NCBI RefSeq assembly: GCF_965363235.1
Contig: NC_134848.1
Span: forward strand, 63,078,181 to 63,142,180
Source of the DNA: Mytilus galloprovincialis
Taxonomy: Eukaryota; Mollusca; Bivalvia; Mytilida; Mytilidae
Length of the DNA: 64,000 bases
Direction of reading: 5' to 3'
Shown here: piece by piece, positions 20,416-55,610 of the stretch
Position numbering within the stretch: the first letter of the stretch is position 1
Layout: the number at the start of each line of letters is the position of its first letter
Translations under genes and position numbers: made by a program
The notes under the pieces: model-generated
The model's database searches: none
Seen by the model: the letters and a program-made list of their open reading frames with translations, nothing else
Told to the model about the DNA's origin: nothing

Positions 20416-20675
20416 TGTCTTATCCAATTAAGCCAAATAAAAAAATCCAATTCATCAGAGGTACCAGTCAGTGAAAGAACTTCAACATACAAGGTAATAT
20501 TCAAAATATCGTGTGACCTATTTCCGGGAAACGATAATTTATCCTTTAAAACGAAACTAGAACTATTTATAAATAGTTTATTTTCTTATTCATAGAGCTC
20601 ATTACAATCATATCAATCAATGTATTAATATACTACGGAAGCCGATAAGGGCCATTCAAAAAAAAAATTATGTCG

Positions 20676-20911
20676 TAATTACGACATCGCTATGTCGTAA
20701 TTTCGACATAACATGTCGTTATTACGACATCGCTATGTCGTAATTTCGACATAACATGTCGTTATTTCGACATAACATGTCGTTATTACGACATCGCTAT
20801 GTCGTAATTTCGACATAACATGTCGTTATTACGACATCGCTATGTCGTAATTTCGCGACATAACATGTCGTTATTTCGACATAACATGTCGTAATAACGA
20901 CATCGCTATGT
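20676..20911. repeat. Palindrome array in the left inverted repeat
   Basis: These are tandem copies of ATGTCGTAATTACGACAT-type units joined by CGCT or AAC spacers, with variants TTTCGACAT and GTTATTACGACAT. Each unit is self-complementary, so the array can form a ladder of small hairpins. The partner array in the right inverted repeat is 24187..24361. Confidence 0.9.
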
Positions 20912-24186: not shown

Positions 24187-24361
24187 TAGTGATGTCGTTA
24201 TTACGACATAGCTATGTCGTTATTACGACATGTTATGTCGAAATTACGACTTAGCGATGTCGTTATAACGACATATTATGTCGAAATTACGACATAGCGA
24301 TGTCGTTGTAACGACATGTTATGTCGAAATTACGACATGCTATGTCGTAATTACGACATAA
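24187..24361. repeat. Palindrome array in the right inverted repeat
   Basis: It uses the same units as 20676..20911 in inverted order, with fewer copies. The two arms therefore differ in length through loss or gain of units rather than by scattered changes. Confidence 0.9.
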
Positions 24362-30556: not shown

Positions 30557-33500
30557 ATGGATCCCAGTCATGTGGAACAACAAGAAGAGATTCAGCCCCA
30601 AGAAGGAGATGTCCCTGAACTATTAGAAAATCCGTCTAATACATCACAGTCAGATGAAACTCCCGAGGCTAGGCGAGTACGTGACCTCACGGAAAAAGGA
30701 CAAGGAGCTTTCACTGAAAAACGTGACAAGTTTTGTCAGGAACTAGAGGCTCTCTGGGCAGACATTGAATCCCAGTTATTGGAAGTAACAACGCCTCCTA
30801 ACGATCTCCAGCAACTCCTAACAGTCCAGGACAAACTTGTTAAAGCCTGTAATAATTATCGTAGGCTTACAGATGAATACCTAGACTTTCTGAAAAGGAC
30901 CCGAACATTGGAGAGTCAAAAAGAAATTGATGCATGTAAACTCTCTTTGGATTTACGTCTGTCCAAAGTGGAGCTAGTTATGGAAAAACTACACGAGCAT
31001 CGCCTCGCTCTAACAAAGGCCAAATCCACTAAAACAAAGACCTCAAGGGGCAAGAAAACCTCGCACAGCGGTAGCTCTAACGTGTCAGACATGTCAAGCC
31101 TGGCACGGAGAAAGCGAGCCAAGGCAGAGGCTGCAAAGTCTAAGATAGCATTTGTCGAAAAACATGCCCTTATCCTACAACAGGAAGCAATGTTAGAAGA
31201 ACAAGCCCTGTTCAGACAAAATGAAATGGAACAGGAAGCAGCACGCAAAAAGGCTGAAATGGAACAGGAAGCAGCACACAAAAAGGCTGAAATGGAACAG
31301 GAAGCCAGTCGTAAACAGGCAGAAATGGAGCAAGAAGTCGCTCAACGTAAACATGAGGCCGCACAGAGAACAGTTCAGCTAGAACAGGAGGCTGCTCACA
31401 GAAAAGTGCAATTAGAACAAGAGGCCGCTTACAGAAAAACGCAATTAGAACAACAATTAGAACAAGAGGCTATGCGCAGGAAGGCTCAAATGCAACAAGA
31501 AGCCGCACGAGTAAGCCGGGAAAAGGCCGAGCTTAAAGCCAAATTTAACCTTCTTGAAGCACAGAGAGAAGCTGCAGCCGCAGAGGCAGAGGCTCGTATC
31601 CTGGAATACGATGATAGCCAAGCGTATAGCGATCTCCCTGACGAAAAGGAAGACCCGCTCCAGCGTGTGCAAGATTTCGTCAATAAACTTCCTGTATCAA
31701 CTGTTGTTAAGGAAGTAACAGGACCTCAAAAGAAAAAACAAATTCCTGTTAAGATTGAGCTGAGTCACGAAGCACCAGCGTTCGTGCCATCCGTGGCATC
31801 GAACTTGCTGTCACAGACATCTGCCGTCTTGCCTTCCGATAATAAGTCACCGGAAGTTACCTTTATCCCAGATCTGGGATTAGTAACCGGCATACAAAAA
31901 CTTGGCCTTTCAGATGAGAGCCCTACTGAACACCAAAAACAGGGTGTTAAAGAAGCGATCCCTGTCTTACGCACAAAACAAGACGTTATAGAAGAGATCC
32001 CTGTTTCACACAAAAAACAAGACGTAATAGAAGAGATCCCTGTTGCACACCAGCAACAAATCAACCTTACATCAGAGATAACTAGATTCCTCTTACGCAA
32101 GGACCTGCTTTTCTCCCGATTAACAAGCTTTAACGATCGGGCAGAATCCTTTCATACTTGGAAAGCAAGCTTCAAGAACGTGACTGATGAGTTACAAGTC
32201 TCTGACTCAGAACAGATCGATTTACTGATCAAGTGGCTCGGTCCAGAGTCTGCTAAACACGCCATTAGCATAAGAGCGTCGAACGCCAATAATCCTACCA
32301 TAGGTATACAGAGATTATGGAAGAGGCTTGACGAGCGGTATGGTGCTCCAGAAATGTTGGAAGCCTCTCTCATGAGTAAACTTGCAAAATTCCCAACCTT
32401 AACGAATAAGGACAACGCACGTCTCTACGAACTGTCTGACATTCTATCTGAAATAGAATATCACAAGGAAAATCCCAAGCTGGGATGTTTGCTAGCATAT
32501 TTTGACTCCTCGTCCGGGATAAATCCTATTGTTGAAAAATTACCGTACGGACTCCAAGAAAAGTGGACCACAAGGGCTACAAGATACAAGTCCAAATATG
32601 AAGTTGCCTTTCCACCTTTCACAGAATTCTCTGCCTTCATCAGGGAAATAAGCAAAACAAAGAACGATCCTGGGTTCATCTTTGGGTCAAAAGCCACACC
32701 AAATACAAAAGGTGCTGCGCCAAGGTCTACGCCTTACCCTAAGACTAAAGTTGGTGCTCATAAAACAGCTGTTGAACAGCAAACTGAAGACAGCAGTCAA
32801 CAACAAAATCTGTGTATCCTACACAAGACAAAGCATACCTTGAATGAATGCCGAGCATTCCGAGCCAAACCAATCGAGGAACGCAAGGAACTGTTAAGAC
32901 AAAACAATGTGTGCTACAAGTGTTGTGAGTCAACCACACACAGAAGTCGGGACTGCAACGCAAGTATCAGTTGTAACGAGTGTGGAAGTGAACGACACAC
33001 CACAGCACTTCACATCATTAGACCACAACAATCTGAAAGTTCCCAGTTTAGCTCACCCAGACAAGCCTACGGCGGGGAGCTAACACAAGTCTACGGCGGG
33101 GAGCAGACAGAGTCAGCTGAAACAAAGTTAACCTCTGTAAGTTCGATCTGCACAGAGATCTACAAAGATCATAAGAGCGAGAAATCTTATGCCAAGATAT
33201 TACCTGTGGACGTGTACCACAAGGACAAGACGGACAAAATTATCAGGATGTACGCCATTATTGACGACCAAAGCAACCGGTCTCTTGCCTCGCCTGAATT
33301 CTTCAGTCTGTTCAACGTTCGGGAGAAACCTGAAAACTACTCTCTTACGACATGCTCCGGTAGAGTAGCTACTTCCGGGAAAAGAGGAAAAGATTTCGTC
33401 ATAAAATCTGTACATAGTGACGTACAATTTGATCTGCCTACATTAATTGAATGTAATAATATTCCCAATAATCGAGACGAAATTCCTACTCCTGAAGTTG

Positions 33501-34561
33501 CAATGCATCATCCTCATCTGACAGAACTCAGAGGAAGTATTACACCACTAGAGGAACGTTGTCAAATTCTACTCCTAATTGGAAGGGACCTTATAGAGGC
33601 ACACCACGTCCTTGAACAACGCCTAGGGCCATCACGAACTCCATTTGCCCAAAAGTTGAGACTTGGTTGGGTCATAATTGGAAATACATACATTGACAAA
33701 CAAACTGTTCCTATTGAAGTCAACACAAAGATAACTTACGTTTCAATCACGGAATCAAAACAACGTCTTGCCTCAAGACCGGAAATAGCCGTTAAGGACA
33801 ATAATCCAATTGTTGTTCAGTCTAACGACAAAAACCTTCATTCGAATGCCAAGGTCGCTAAATCGCATTCAATACAATCCCTTGAATGTACAGGACCTAG
33901 TACCAAGCCTGGTAAACGCACAAATTCATCTAAAGGGACATCACTCGCGTCACTAAAAGCAAAATCTGTGACTTCTATAGAAAAATCTATAGATAAAGAA
34001 AGTTTCAATCCGAAATCAACAGAACCTAAAGTTCATGGAGAGGAAATCAATAGCATTCACAAACCTATTCCGAAAGAAGGACCTATTGCTAATCTCAATC
34101 TGCCCTTGCATGAGCAACGTCTACTACGAGAAGGAAGCAGTATTGCCAAGTCTGACTTGAATATAAGTGAAAAGGAACAAGTAGTCTTATCTGGACATCG
34201 TCACAGAGTAACACCTTTTCTTGGACATTACTACAACAAAATCAAACATAGAGGACCCCACTTCACAGATAGAACAACTGGATCAGCAGGATGGAACGTT
34301 AGGGCGAAACGCTTAATTTCGTCTGATACTCAAAAAGATGTTACATTTCGCCAAACTGGAAGAGGACCGAGTATTAGCTCTCGTCATACCCACCGGAGGA
34401 CCACCTTCAACCGTCGTCGCCGTCTAACAACGTTGGAGAAAACAGTTCCTACTACCTCAACAACAGCTATGGAACATTCTACAAATCACAGCGATCTCAT
34501 TGGAGAGATCCTTCTACATAGGACAAGAAACTGTGCCAAACCCAGTTTTCCGTGGAATTAA
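30557..34561 (+). CDS. BEL/Pao gag-protease ORF (1,334 residues)
   Basis: This is the coding region of the LTR element above; its ATG is the first good start after the 5' LTR. The N-terminal 350 residues are largely helical, with a coiled-coil run of EQEAA-type repeats (about residues 215-330). A short repeat built on the word VIEEIP (about residues 475-500) follows. The part around residues 510-720 matches the pattern of the BEL/Pao gag region (DUF1759 class). A Cys/His zinc-knuckle cluster lies near residues 785-825, and an aspartic protease-like region (YAIIDDQSNRSLAS and onward, DUF1758 class) near 900-1060. The C-terminal 270 residues are basic and unassigned. The product would assemble particles and process them; this is known for the family, not shown here. 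Confidence 0.8.
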   Translation: MDPSHVEQQEEIQPQEGDVPELLENPSNTSQSDETPEARRVRDLTEKGQGAFTEKRDKFCQELEALWADIESQLLEVTTPPNDLQQLLTVQDKLVKACNNYRRLTDEYLDFLKRTRTLESQKEIDACKLSLDLRLSKVELVMEKLHEHRLALTKAKSTKTKTSRGKKTSHSGSSNVSDMSSLARRKRAKAEAAKSKIAFVEKHALILQQEAMLEEQALFRQNEMEQEAARKKAEMEQEAAHKKAEMEQEASRKQAEMEQEVAQRKHEAAQRTVQLEQEAAHRKVQLEQEAAYRKTQLEQQLEQEAMRRKAQMQQEAARVSREKAELKAKFNLLEAQREAAAAEAEARILEYDDSQAYSDLPDEKEDPLQRVQDFVNKLPVSTVVKEVTGPQKKKQIPVKIELSHEAPAFVPSVASNLLSQTSAVLPSDNKSPEVTFIPDLGLVTGIQKLGLSDESPTEHQKQGVKEAIPVLRTKQDVIEEIPVSHKKQDVIEEIPVAHQQQINLTSEITRFLLRKDLLFSRLTSFNDRAESFHTWKASFKNVTDELQVSDSEQIDLLIKWLGPESAKHAISIRASNANNPTIGIQRLWKRLDERYGAPEMLEASLMSKLAKFPTLTNKDNARLYELSDILSEIEYHKENPKLGCLLAYFDSSSGINPIVEKLPYGLQEKWTTRATRYKSKYEVAFPPFTEFSAFIREISKTKNDPGFIFGSKATPNTKGAAPRSTPYPKTKVGAHKTAVEQQTEDSSQQQNLCILHKTKHTLNECRAFRAKPIEERKELLRQNNVCYKCCESTTHRSRDCNASISCNECGSERHTTALHIIRPQQSESSQFSSPRQAYGGELTQVYGGEQTESAETKLTSVSSICTEIYKDHKSEKSYAKILPVDVYHKDKTDKIIRMYAIIDDQSNRSLASPEFFSLFNVREKPENYSLTTCSGRVATSGKRGKDFVIKSVHSDVQFDLPTLIECNNIPNNRDEIPTPEVAMHHPHLTELRGSITPLEERCQILLLIGRDLIEAHHVLEQRLGPSRTPFAQKLRLGWVIIGNTYIDKQTVPIEVNTKITYVSITESKQRLASRPEIAVKDNNPIVVQSNDKNLHSNAKVAKSHSIQSLECTGPSTKPGKRTNSSKGTSLASLKAKSVTSIEKSIDKESFNPKSTEPKVHGEEINSIHKPIPKEGPIANLNLPLHEQRLLREGSSIAKSDLNISEKEQVVLSGHRHRVTPFLGHYYNKIKHRGPHFTDRTTGSAGWNVRAKRLISSDTQKDVTFRQTGRGPSISSRHTHRRTTFNRRRRLTTLEKTVPTTSTTAMEHSTNHSDLIGEILLHRTRNCAKPSFPWN

Positions 34562-47949: not shown

Positions 47950-48392
47950 TTGCTGGTATCTAAAAGTGTATTCGTAATGTATACATATATATACATATCG
48001 AAAGCATGATTTTATTGGAGATTGAAAGAACTGTGTCTACAGAGCGGTTACTTGGATGTGTTGGTGTTTAACATACACTACGATACACATTTGTACTGAA
48101 ATTGAAAGGCGACAAGGCACTTTCATTATTAAGCAGAGACATACATACAAATGTCTCCGATCAAAGGTACATTGCAACTACAAGCAGATGTATGCTACAG
48201 TTATATGACAGCGAATGTATAAAGCTTCGCAAGGTCGTACTGAGTCACGGTGATTTCCAATCTTCTTTCATTTCTGGAAAAAATAAACGTTATCAAATTT
48301 AAACTAATGTATATACATTTGTAGCTCTATACATTTAACGATGCAGTTATATGACATTCTTATACAATACTAGTTGATCCTTTATGTAGTTA
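47950..48392. other. Short spacer between two mobile elements
   Basis: AT-rich, with a 66-codon plus-strand frame (48102..48302) that shows no motif. Nothing is supported. Confidence 0.35.
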
Positions 48393-49060
48393 TAGTCCAG
48401 CGGATATCAGAATAATTGATCACTTTATGTCACTTTATGGTAAAAGCATGAAAATTGGCATAGTGAAAGATAAAGGGGTATAGACAAAATTCAGATATGG
48501 AGCCACGAAAAAAAATCCAATATGGCCGCCAAATTCAAGATGGCCGAAATAAGTATAACATCATTCATTTGATGAAGACTTCCAATTTTAATGAGTTCAG
48601 AAGATGTCACAAACTTAATGAAATACAATTAAGATATGTCAGTTATTATTTTTGTAAACCTTATAATAAAGAAATCATCAAAATGGCGTCCAAATTCAAA
48701 ATGGCGCGTCAAAATGTCTAAGTTTGACAGTATTCGTATGTGTACACCATCATTGTGTGATAGAAAGTTACCAAATCCGTGAAACTGATCATTTGATATA
48801 AATAAAGGCCTACATTGTATCAACAATACATATGTGCATAGATTATATTTCCAAAATGGCGGCAATATTCAAAATGGCGCCGTTTAATATGTAAAAATTT
48901 TACGTTTCTTCTTAAATATGGTATAAAAATGATTAAAAAATAATGGATCATTTTTTCAATACAAGCACGTATATACAAACATATTATTATTTAATGTAAC
49001 AAGTGACATTAGCTATGAAATAAAAATAGTCGATTCAACTCAAAATGGCGTCTTTGACAA
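48393..49060. repeat. Left inverted repeat of the 4.19-kb transposon
   Basis: The ATGGCG words come at about 48524, 48684, 48857 and 49044, a period of about 160 to 185 bp. They are in the opposite orientation to those at the right end. Confidence 0.65.
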
Positions 49061-49208
49061 GTTTTTTTTCCACAGTTACAGGTAATAACCTTAGAAAATT
49101 TAACAATTTTCCTGAAATGAAAAAAAAAAAAAAACCAACATATTTAATTCTACAAAGAGAATTTATTTTTTTAGAAATGAGGTAAGAAATAAAAAAACTC
49201 CCGAGTAG

Positions 49209-51760
49209 CTATTTAACATGAACATAGATTAAAATTATAATGACAATATGATCAAAATGCAGGAAAATCCAAATAAAGCACAGTGACTCAATCAGTTTCT
49301 CTTTCACAGTCCGTTGAGAAGTGTAAAATGCTGTGCATTTTAATGCTGCTTTCAAGCATTTACATGCTCTTCGACATCCTTTCTTACAGTGGATGAGATC
49401 TTGGCATAACATTGAAGCGTCAGCAAGCACAGACAAGAATGGTACCCAAGTACCATCAATTTTTTTGCCAACAAAATAAATCTGGTGATGGCATACTTGG
49501 ATTTCAACCTAAACAATTGCCCCAAATAACACAACCTTGGTAAGCTGTACGTTTCTTATGTTGAAGAAGTTCATCACGTGTTGGAGGGATATTGTCAATT
49601 GGTCTTGTCTTCTGTGTTAATTACTATTTTCTTAACTCATTCATCGTATAACTTGTACTAGACCGATCATACAAAAGCACAACATACCGTTCTATTACTT
49701 TTAACACTTTTAAAATTTCCACTTCATTAGGATTCTCAATAACCTGCAGAAATGCTTCTGAAAACTCCTCATATACGGACCATGTGTCCCAAGCTGATTT
49801 CTTACCTTTCCCAGAAAAAGCGGAGACTTTGTCACAACCGGTAAAGGCATGGCACAGTGGAAAGACTTTCGATTCAATGGTCCTAGGGCAAGGCACAATC
49901 CATGAACTGATATATCGGAAGTTCATCCTAGTGCCAAAACTTATCCACAGCTATTCAATCTGCAGTCTGTTTGGAATGATTCTTGGAAGGATAATATTTG
50001 TTCATGATGAGGTTTATTAGATTCGTTAGTGATATACAAAGCATTCATTGACATTTTCAAATTCATTTACCAAACTAGCCATTTCAGGCCCAGCAACCAT
50101 CCATCTATGAAGCGCTCCTGGATTTTCCGTCAATCCAACAGCACCACCATCTGCTTTAACATGCGCATTATTTTGTTCGTCGGCTTGATTAAAAGCCATA
50201 CAGGAAAATTTCTTCTCGGTCTTGGTGACAAAAAGGGTTGCCGCTAAGGATTGCTCTGTGGGTTTCTGGATTCTTTTTTGGCAACTGAAGCATATTACGC
50301 AGATGAATTGGCAGCCATCGTGAATAGTTGGTGTGATCCAAGGCAAAGAACCAAGGAATGATCTTTGGGAGAGCTTCAATATATAATAAAAAGTTAGCCT
50401 CACGTATAGACCTTATAAATATTAATATTGTCAATTCAAATTTGAGAGTTATATACAAGAATTTAAAGTGAGGAGATTGTTTAGATAGTTCCAAACACCA
50501 CTCTTCAAATTCTAAGATAACCTCATCATACCTTAAAACATCTTTGTACTGGCAGTACGCGTTTGACAATAGACGGTAAAGTGTGCATGCTGTAACTTGG
50601 TGTGTTCTACGTGTTGTTGTAACAGGAGAAGCCTTTATGAATGAATCAGCTGTACCTGGTGATGTAACCTGTGCATTTACTAAAACACTTGTCCATTCAC
50701 TATCTTGAAGCCAACCGTAATGCTTTGAACGCAGCCATTTCTATGTGTAGGCTACCGAACATCATTACCAAGTGATCCTCGCCATACATCTGAGGCCAGT
50801 TCCATTATATTTGTTTTGCTATTGTGAAAAGGGGTTGGTCAAAAGCAACAACTGGAGTTTGGCCTGGATTTAGCTTTCTTACAGTGTTACGAATAATGTT
50901 CAATGAGTGTCGTATCAATGCAACATACTTTGCTTGCTCATGAAACAGAGGTAGAAGGGCAGACACTGCTGGTAATTTATTCGCATTTGGCAGTACTACA
51001 GCATGATAGGCGGACCATGAATATTTTTACCCACTTTAGCCTTAACACTTGAATTTTCTGCAACATGTTTCAGCCATTTGGGTTTCCCTTTTAATGCAGC
51101 TGGGAATGAGGACATATCAATTGAAAGTTCTCCTTCAACTAATGGGATATCTGGTTCGTTGAATCTTAGTACAGCTGGTTGAAGATTTGAATAACTCTCT
51201 GGTAATGGTAAAAGAGAAACTCTCTTTGACTGGCATTTCAACATAGGTTCAGATTGGAGAAATGTTTGAACAACGCCTTGAACATCTTCTGAAATATGTT
51301 GCAATAAAGATTTACCTGTACCATCGAATGAATCTTTTGACGATATAATGCTTGGATTGTGATCAATGTTGTCTACAGCACATGAAGTAAATACATTTTG
51401 TAGTAGATTGGTAGGGCAAACTATACCGTCTTTTACATAACGATCATAAGCCATGGAAGTAGAAATTTCTAACACTCGTTGGTAGGAGACAAATAGTCCA
51501 AGTTTGAAGAAAGTATCTACTACATGTAGATCACGTTTTCTAGCCTTACAGAGGATCATGATTCCCAAATAAGCACAAACTGTAGGTTCATGATCTTTTA
51601 TGTGACGGTTTGATAGTTTCTTTGTACATCTATACACCAGAAGCGCTGTGCTATCGTTAATGTCGACTGAGAATATAAACGATCCTGAATGTTGGGTCCA
51701 AACTAAATCATACTGACCAAAGAAAGCAATGACTAGGGTACAGAATTTTCCTGACATCAC
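49209..51760 (-). pseudogene. Degraded gene of a large uncharacterised invertebrate protein family, candidate transposase
   Basis: Read on the minus strand, conserved-looking segments occur in family order: FKLGLFVSYQRVLEIS and VDNIDHNPS (in the 254-codon frame 50996..51760); VVAFDQPLFTIAKQI; HLVMMFGSLHIEMAA; TSPGTADSFIKAS; FEEWCLELSKQSPHF and FVRSIREANF-like (50189..50569); PWFFALDHTNYSRWLP; QADEQNNAHVKADGGAVG; GALHRWMVAGPE; HAFTGCDKVSAFSGKGKK and ERYVVLLYDRS (49624..49926); a Cys-rich end KKGCRRACKC near 49340..49400. From memory, these strings mark many repeated uncharacterised proteins of molluscs and cnidarians, about 1,000 residues long. The copy is broken: for example a stop in place of the residue after AKQI (50805..50807), a frame change near 50200..50400, and stops near 49500..49620. 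The repeated Asp and Glu motifs would suit a DDE-type enzyme, but that is inference. Confidence 0.7.
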
Positions 51761-51899
51761 TTTGGGAAGGTTCCTTTAAATTCCTAATTTGATGCAAAAA
51801 TATTTGTACGAAACAAACGTAGCTGCTTTTGATATGTTGAAAAATTGATTATCAAAGTCTTCTAAGCAGACTCTCGTAAATGCAGGACCACTGTCATAT

Positions 51900-52582
51900 T
51901 TGAAAGCAAGAATGTTTATGGTTTCTGATAATAAGATTTTTGACGGCCATTTTGAATTTGTCGGCCATTATGGAATTATTTTTTATTGTTCCATATTCAT
52001 AAAAGATTAATTAGCATCATAACAAGCAATATGCAAAGTTTTGTGCTTTTATTTTCAAATGATCAATTATACCATTTTTTTGGACTCTGCATCATGACTG
52101 TTGGCAGCCATTTTGAATTTGTCGGCCATTATGGAATTATTTTTTATTGTTCCATATTAATAAAAGATTATAAGCAATATAACTAGCAATATGCAAAGTG
52201 TTGTGCTTTTATTTTCGATTGATAAATTAAGCCATAATTTTTGGACTCTGCCTCATGACTGTTGGCCCCCATTTTTAAATTGGCGGCCATTATGGAATTA
52301 TTTTTGATTGTTCCATATTCAGAAAAGCTTAATTATCATCATAACTAGCAATAAGCAAAGTTTTGTGTTTTTATTTTCAAATGATAAATTATACTATATT
52401 TTTAGACTCTGCTTCATGACTGATGGCGGCCATTTTGAAATTGGCGCCCATTGTGGAAATTTTTTTTATGGCTCCATATCCAAAAATATTTATAAGCATC
52501 GTAACTAACACTGTGCAAAGTTTCATGCTTTTACCACAAAGTGATCAATTGTCCCAAAATATTGGACTTAGCTGCTGGACTA
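51900..52582. repeat. Right inverted repeat of the 4.19-kb transposon, four units of about 161 bp
   Basis: The word GCCATTTTGAA (or a close variant) recurs near 51946, 52107, 52267 and 52428. Each is followed by GGCCATTATGGAATT and CAAAGTTTTGTGCTTTTATTTTC. The terminal unit diverges most and carries the GCTGGACTA end. Confidence 0.8.
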
Positions 52583-53119
52583 TTACTGTTGTTTTGTATA
52601 ATAAAGAGGCATTCGCTTCCAACTTATGCTCAACGATATTTTCAAACTCTATTTCTCCGTCCAAACATGCTTTGAAACGATAGTTTATTGTACACACTAC
52701 ATGTACGTTAATGGATATTATTTCTGTTTACTTATTTTATATGTGAATTGTCATTGCGGAAATGAAAACACACACACATTACTATTTTCGATTGTGAGAT
52801 GATATAATAAGTACTACAACTATTCTATATATGGATTGATACGTATCATTAGAGATGACAAGGATATTGTACAATGACTAACGAACTGAGTATGCGTAAT
52901 TTGACGAATTGTACAAAACGGGACCTGCTGTTTTGTACAAAGAAATGAATAAATCTAACATGCATACGCTGGTTGAAGTTTAGTAATTCGCATCACTTGC
53001 ATGTAGTTTAAAAAGATAGCATCTGTTTATAACTACTCACATAAATTATTCAATGTTTTCCACTACAGCGAAAGATGCACTCGATATCCAAGACTTTTCT
53101 TTTAAAAATATATTCAAAA

Positions 53120-53663: not shown

Positions 53664-54130
53664 AACAAGAATGTGTCCATAGTACACGGATGCCCCACTC
53701 GCACTATCATTTTCTATGTTCAGTGGACCGTGAAATTGGGTACAAACTTTAATTTGGATTAAAAATTAGAAATATCATATCATATGGAACATGTGTACTA
53801 AGTTTCAAGTTGATGTAACTTTAACTTCATCAAAAACTACCTTGACTAAAAACTTTAACCTGAAGCGAACTATCATTTTCTATGTTCAGTGGACCATGAA
53901 ATTGGGGTCAAAACTATAATTTGGCATTAAAATTAGAAAGATCATATCATGGGGAACATGTGTACTAAGTTTGAAGTTGATTGGACTTCAACTTCATCAA
54001 AAACTACCTTGACCAAAAACTTTAACCTGAAGCGAACGGACGCACAGACGGACGCACAGACGGACGAACGAACGGACGCACAGACCAGAAAACATAATGC
54101 CCCTCTACTATCGAAGTTGGGGCATAAAAA
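53664..54130 (+). mobile_element. Pearl-like non-autonomous element with two core units and GGACGCACAGAC microsatellite
   Basis: The 5' segment has AACAAGAATGTGTCC and GGATGCCCCACTCG. There are two core units of 166 bp (the marker ACTATCATTTTCTATG is at 53703 and 53869). A GGACGCACAGACGGACG microsatellite follows at about 54036..54086. The 3' segment has a hairpin whose arms ATGCCCC and GGGGCAT close around CTACTATCG (54097..54125). The plan is the same as at 9957..12284 with different sequences, so two families of one architecture coexist here. There is no coding capacity. Confidence 0.75.
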
Positions 54131-55610
54131 ATCAATGCTTTTGTAAATACATGTACTAATTATTGAAGATTTTATCAAACAAACCATGTCAGAAAGAAGC
54201 ATGTTGCGGTCAACAATTTTTTCTAAAGTAACGGGTCATTAGAGTTAATAAATTTGAATCCTATTCAGTATGGACTTAACCATTGCATCTCTTCTTATAT
54301 GGTTTGATATCCTAACTGGAATGTTGTTTTTTGTAATGGATTTTAAAATAAGGGGTTGGAAGTCTTAATATTCTAACACATTATGATAACATGGATAAGT
54401 GAAAAAATAATTAAAAAAAAGGAAAAAAAGGTGGGTCTACCCCATGTGTTTTTTTTATATGCTACCATTTTCTTCAAAATAGTAAAACGTCTTTATGCAA
54501 AACCAATTATGCATTTTGTCTAGTAAACTTCAATAATAAAATGATTTATTTACTCTTATGACCACCAACATAGTTGCGAATGTTAGAGGTTGACAGTTAT
54601 GATAAAGAACTATTTGCAACATAAATCATTTCTTATTTGAAAAAAAACCCTGTACATTTCTTTTATTTTAATTTTAAACGGAGATATTTGTTTGTCTGAA
54701 TCTTGAATACGTAAACGAAAACATAGAGAAAGCATACGATACGACAAGAATAAATTTATAAATAATTTCAGCATTCATAATTGATTGAACACATTCATCG
54801 ATGCACTCGAATAATGATGCACATTTCATTTGAAATCAACAATTGCCACCAACCACATTCTATCGTAAGAAAAGAAACACGTTCTGAAACTTTTAAACGC
54901 CTTATTTTATGCTGTCCACTCAGTTACACCCTTTAATGCATTTATTGTTGTATAGATATATATTGTTCTATTATTGTCCATCAGGGAAATAAATACGATA
55001 CAAAGCAGATGTTATCTGAGAGCGAGCATCTCAAAGATTTTCCCAATTCAATATATTTTCACACCTTCTGCAGGAACAGAAAATTAATGCCCATCCAAAT
55101 CCGAATGATATTTTGTCTTAATGAATCACAAAATGCATTCTACGTTTATGTATGCCAGGCCTTAAACTATTCAAAACTGCACAATTTACTCTGTACACAG
55201 AGTAGATTTTGAGGTGTAAATACAGCCGATTTTGTCTATTTGTTATGCTGAACCTTAAATTTGTTCGTCAATATCCTGGTTATCTCTATATAGTGATTTA
55301 AACAGTGTCACTAAGTGTAACATATCAAGTGAACCTGAACTGTGTGCTTAATAGTATTCAACAATCTTTTGCAGAGTGGAAGCAAAGTGCAGAACAAATC
55401 CAATATACTCCTTTGAACTACGTTTGTTTTGAACACTATAAGAGTTAAAATCTTAATCTATCTACAATGAATTGACGTTGTTTATCGTCTTAATCACGTG
55501 TAATAGTGTTCTCTTATTCTTCGTTCTAAATTTTTGCTCTTACTGTTTGATCTAGTGTTGATGGTGTCCATTTGTCGTGACTCAGTACTTATACATCCCG
55601 TCATTGTGTT
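54131..55610. other. Intergenic AT-rich DNA
   Basis: No gene, repeat end or RNA gene was recognised. A 67-codon plus-strand frame at 55009..55212 has no motif. Confidence 0.35.

Follow-up and report, generated by a model that had tools for sequence, protein, structure and literature searches.

A decayed DNA transposon of probable AcademX type carries a member of an abundant protein family in Mytilus galloprovincialis

In the window analysed here, a stretch of 64,000 nucleotides of the M. galloprovincialis genome, positions 48393-52582 are occupied by a DNA transposon of 4,190 bp with TAGTCCAGC inverted ends and a 3-bp target duplication. Judged against the published description, we consider with good confidence that this is a decayed, non-autonomous cut-and-paste element of the Academ superfamily, AcademX type, and that the protein encoded inside it is very probably the element's own transposase. 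The element is filed there because its family combines a 3-bp duplication with a DUF6589-like core and a nuclease-like part that replaces the helicase. The same three features do not favour the proposal of the initial annotation, made from the letters of this DNA, that the protein family is a candidate transposase of a poorly described or unnamed superfamily.

Both borders of the element are exact. On the left the duplicated TTA (48390-48392) is followed directly by the terminal inverted repeat TAGTCCAGC (48393-48401, plus strand), on the right the terminal repeat GCTGGACTA (52574-52582, minus strand) is followed by the second TTA (52583-52585), and exact sites of the 9-mer occur in the window at these two ends only. 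Internal to both ends the inverted sequence continues, and there are repeat arrays of opposite orientation, consisting on the left of repeats with AATGGC words (48515-49051, plus strand), which are candidate transposase-binding sites, and on the right of tandem units of about 161 bp (51935-52582, minus strand; 3.7 copies at 51946-52533), the last of which extends into the terminal repeat. A broken transposase gene, interrupted by frameshifts and stops, occupies 49209-51916 on the minus strand. The ordered motifs that had first drawn attention to it are all found on minus-strand open reading frames (ORFs), namely VDNIDHNPS (50996-51760), PWFFALDHT (50189-50569), GGAVGLTEN (50026-50403), GCDKVS (49624-49926) and a Cys-rich, CXC-like tail (49209-49436), for which the TCR model gave a weak match in the relative L069 (E 0.21). 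With the tandem units, the motifs and the exact 9-mer ends all in place, the picture of a motif-bearing protein gene inside a transposon with defined ends was confirmed.

The 1.385-Gb genome was then searched with the 30-base left and right ends, allowing up to three mismatches and using the reversed sequences as controls. The left end gave 74 matches and the right end 61, with none for either control, and these formed 39 properly oriented pairs of 209 to 8,619 bp; loci of the family lie on contigs C1-C7 and C9-C14. The gene was found inside 34 of the 39 pairs, most of them with ends 3.4-8.6 kb apart, a count that is a lower bound since it was checked against 60 protein places drawn from the protein search list. 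This agrees with the earlier suggestion that the protein is a candidate transposase, and as the transposase of an element with defined ends its copy number is explained. That the gene is instead a passenger of an unrelated element could be argued from the five pairs (209, 245, 498, 1,165 and 5,321 bp) in which none of the 60 places falls; four of these, however, are short, like miniature derivatives, and related proteins of about 41-47% identity are themselves present in multiple copies. Together with the presence of the gene in 34 of the 39 pairs, which disfavours it, this makes the passenger reading very improbable.

All six copies for which both ends were examined are flanked by identical 3-bp words, and the fourth base is not duplicated. 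The 3-bp duplication described initially therefore stands, but its sequence is not always TTA: the words are TTA in the window copy (L039) and in L043, AAT in L040, CAC in L042, TAG in L044 and ATT in the copy formed by L026 with L066, which carries one mismatch in each end. Since the words vary among the six copies, TTA is no fixed target, and the suggested search for further copies with the same ends and TTA flanks gave 39 pairs of ends, with TTA flanks in two of the six copies, the window copy included. This variation also bears on the origin of the element, because Harbinger typically uses TTA or TWA as its target, and a PIF/Harbinger element would share with the window family the 3-bp duplication and, in those two copies, its sequence. 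The other four duplications, AAT, CAC, TAG and ATT, show that the window family is not restricted to TTA, and Pfam searches with the window frames and with their relatives brought up no Harbinger-type model. We rejected this assignment, to which we give almost no credence, and only the sharing of these ends by two element types could rescue it. EnSpm/CACTA and Zator elements also make 3-bp duplications, but the ends in the window are not of the CACT type, and the relatives of the window copy have no Pfam match to the transposases of either group.

One of the copies also provides a related empty site. L042 is inserted in a dispersed repeat, and when its flanks were joined with a single CAC, all 40 places that were scored, out of 1,160 candidates, matched through the junction at base 52 with 92-96% identity. 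These places are other, uninterrupted copies of the host repeat and no empty allele.

Several other repeats were encountered in the course of these searches. The 12-mer TTATAGTCCAGC had 194 genome matches against 43 for its control, but it was rejected as a marker of copies because at six of the eight sites examined (L001 and L003-L007) another repeat carries it internally; the members of that other family are 78-96% alike over 1-2.4 kb. Past the edge of this repeat, L001 contains a fragment that shares 40-53% identity with the C-terminal part of the L069 protein. At about 54036-54150 the window contains a copy of a dispersed repeat, with ACGGACGCACAG units followed by AGACCAGAAAACATAATGCCCC; this repeat also flanks L042 and matched no fewer than 40 places in the genome. 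Elsewhere in the window, the plus strand at 30557-34561 is open over 1,334 residues and encodes zinc-knuckle-like CxxC motifs; by eye, this frame resembles gag and protease of a BEL/Pao-type retrotransposon. A 43-bp palindrome-like unit (ATGTCGTAATTACGACAT...) forms tandem arrays at 20670-20903 and 24192-24359, about 3.5 kb apart, which may mark both ends of a further element.

With one frame of the window as query, the protein search returned at least 159 genome matches. The longest related frame, L069, is open over 1,280 residues, and a closer subfamily comprises L047, L048, L055 and L059. Set against these relatives, the window copy is missing an N-terminal part, corresponding to the first 282 residues of the first frame of L055, as well as some 340-360 inner residues: its alignment to L069 breaks off at residue 686 and continues from 1044, and the matches from both sides overlap at 49965-50001 (minus strand), the junction of an inner deletion by which most of the nuclease-like region was lost. 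L040 can be aligned with the window copy over its whole length (94%). In L040, L041, L043 and L044 the break in the matches to L069 runs from 711 to 1053, and in L021, L025, L026, L029, L032 and L036 from 349 to 1057. Since such junctions are shared, and lie at different places, the sequences suggest that deletion derivatives probably multiplied, which would require a transposase supplied in trans. L047 and L048 are separated by about 1.8 Mb but have only 6 differences in 4,942 positions and represent a recent duplication, either through transposition or together with their surroundings. No relatives were confirmed in viral contigs or in prokaryote genome contigs. A literature text search for NIDHNPS, GGAVGLTEN, HEEADTR and PWFFALDHTNY gave no match, a result of little weight because such strings are seldom printed in papers.

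In the protein of the relatives, N-terminal CxxC/HxxC modules are followed by a DUF6589-like core, then by a region whose acidic motifs are XPG/FEN-like, and finally by a Cys-rich tail. The similarity of the core to Pfam DUF6589, a family labelled there only as of unknown function, is weak and below the curated Pfam cut-off of 27 bits (E 4.9e-5 and 6.6e-5, scores of 22.6 and 22.2 bits; best E 1.8e-5). Among the five aligned cores it was seen in two, and the L069 frame gave no DUF6589 match in Pfam. Named transposase models of Pfam were absent from the matches of the window frames and of the relatives, and the comparison of the core with PDB sequences yielded four weak, unrelated matches only (E 0.76-1.1). 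The acids invariant in the five aligned cores include D61, D230, D244 and E283 (A3 numbering), equivalent to D424, D593, D607 and E646 in the L069 frame. Taking the DUF6589-like core as a DDE-type transposase, the candidate catalytic residues would be D424, either D593 or D607, and E646; three invariant acids had been anticipated, and the alignment supplies invariant candidates but narrows the triad no further than this.

The nuclease of AcademX elements is XPG-like, and the C-terminal region of the relatives contains, in order, DGxAxVN, a D followed by NSLKA, HEEADTR, DTDV (DTNV in L055) and GCDTVS-F-GKGKK, an arrangement of acidic motifs that we take to resemble that of XPG/FEN1 nucleases. 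This shared motif order contrasts with the lack of a significant XPG match for the region in PDB sequences, Pfam, NCBIfam or by hhalign. XPG_I or related Pfam models were not among the matches up to E 10 in six members, and the six places returned by an XPG_I profile search of the genome included none of the listed family copies. When seven transposon sequences were compared with 60 archaeal FEN1 sequences by hhalign, the score was 14.96 (E 0.39), a value reached by 92 and 83 of 150 shuffled profiles; in the same comparison five invariant acid pairs were aligned, four of them at columns of FEN catalytic type (the D28 pair is not), and none of 300 shuffles reached five such pairs (means of about 1, maximum 4). 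In an earlier hhalign run the nuclease region, at 16.5, was outscored by both controls, the transposase core (19.31) and the FEN profile in reverse (16.92). Overall, these comparisons make the XPG link suggestive only. Many genome copies match only the later portion of the nuclease-like part (about query 150-434) with 60-66% identity, for example C1:55569298-55570086 and C8:43173899-43174672, so this portion also spreads in elements that have no listed core match nearby.

Two lineages of Academ have to be considered. AcademX is described with 3-4-bp duplications and AcademH with 9-10-bp duplications, a difference that is linked to the nuclease of the former and the helicase of the latter (PMC10045372); helicases of AcademH also appear in PMC10799480, and PMC3627910 mentions a RecQ helicase for Academ. 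A DUF6589 profile search of the M. galloprovincialis genome gave at least 101 matches, grouped into 77 loci, which were compared with the 148 listed Helicase_C matches. Such a match lay within 10 kb of 38 of the 77 loci, compared with 0.16 expected under uniform placement, and in all 38 cases on the opposite strand; the remaining 39 loci had no listed Helicase_C match within that distance. DUF6589 with an opposite-strand helicase is as would be expected for the gene pair of AcademH. The window family shares with AcademH a weakly DUF6589-like core but differs in the rest: among the listed matches, no Helicase_C was found within 10 kb of any of its 93 core loci and no helicase near any of its 91 nuclease-part loci, whereas the nuclease-like part lay within 4 kb of 36 of the 93 core loci, and its duplication is of 3 bp rather than 9-10 bp.

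The family could alternatively form a separate, unnamed superfamily, a distant sister of Academ related to it only through the DUF6589-like core. The similarity to DUF6589 is indeed partial, below the cut-off and absent for L069 taken alone, and none of the 93 core loci has a listed DUF6589 match of the genome within 5 kb. Against this, a 3-bp duplication combined with a nuclease-like part instead of a helicase is what PMC10045372 gives for AcademX, and we regard a separate superfamily as unlikely. The assignment to AcademX, made by description only, draws on the 3-bp duplication, the pairing of a transposase with a nuclease-like part and the many copies in a mollusc genome. Among the molluscs compared in PMC10294476, Academ is reported almost only from bivalves, where the curated elements average 5,565 bp, and PMC9587614 counts it among the superfamilies with a DDD/E transposase.

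For this AcademX-type element we propose the following mechanism. The relatives encode one large protein, in which a core taken to be a DDE-type transposase and a nuclease region of XPG/FEN-like kind lie between the N-terminal CxxC/HxxC modules and the Cys-rich tail, and this transposase may bind the subterminal repeats together with the short terminal repeats. It would cut at TAGTCCAGC and insert the element into a staggered target cut, leaving 3-bp duplications of variable sequence, and the nuclease region may assist in strand processing. Copies like that in the window, and the miniatures of 209-498 bp, would be mobilised in trans. A bolder version, which we think improbable, would make the family a sister superfamily of Academ whose RNase-H-type transposase is fused to a FEN/XPG-like flap nuclease that makes or trims the second-strand cuts; we know of no other cut-and-paste element for which such a division of labour has been described.

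These results give an identity as part of a transposon to an abundant protein family whose Pfam scores stay below the cut-off. Moreover, the regular pairing with helicases in the M. galloprovincialis genome ties DUF6589, in all probability, to an AcademH-like gene pair, and the relatives with long open frames would make the roles of the Academ nuclease and helicase accessible to experiment.
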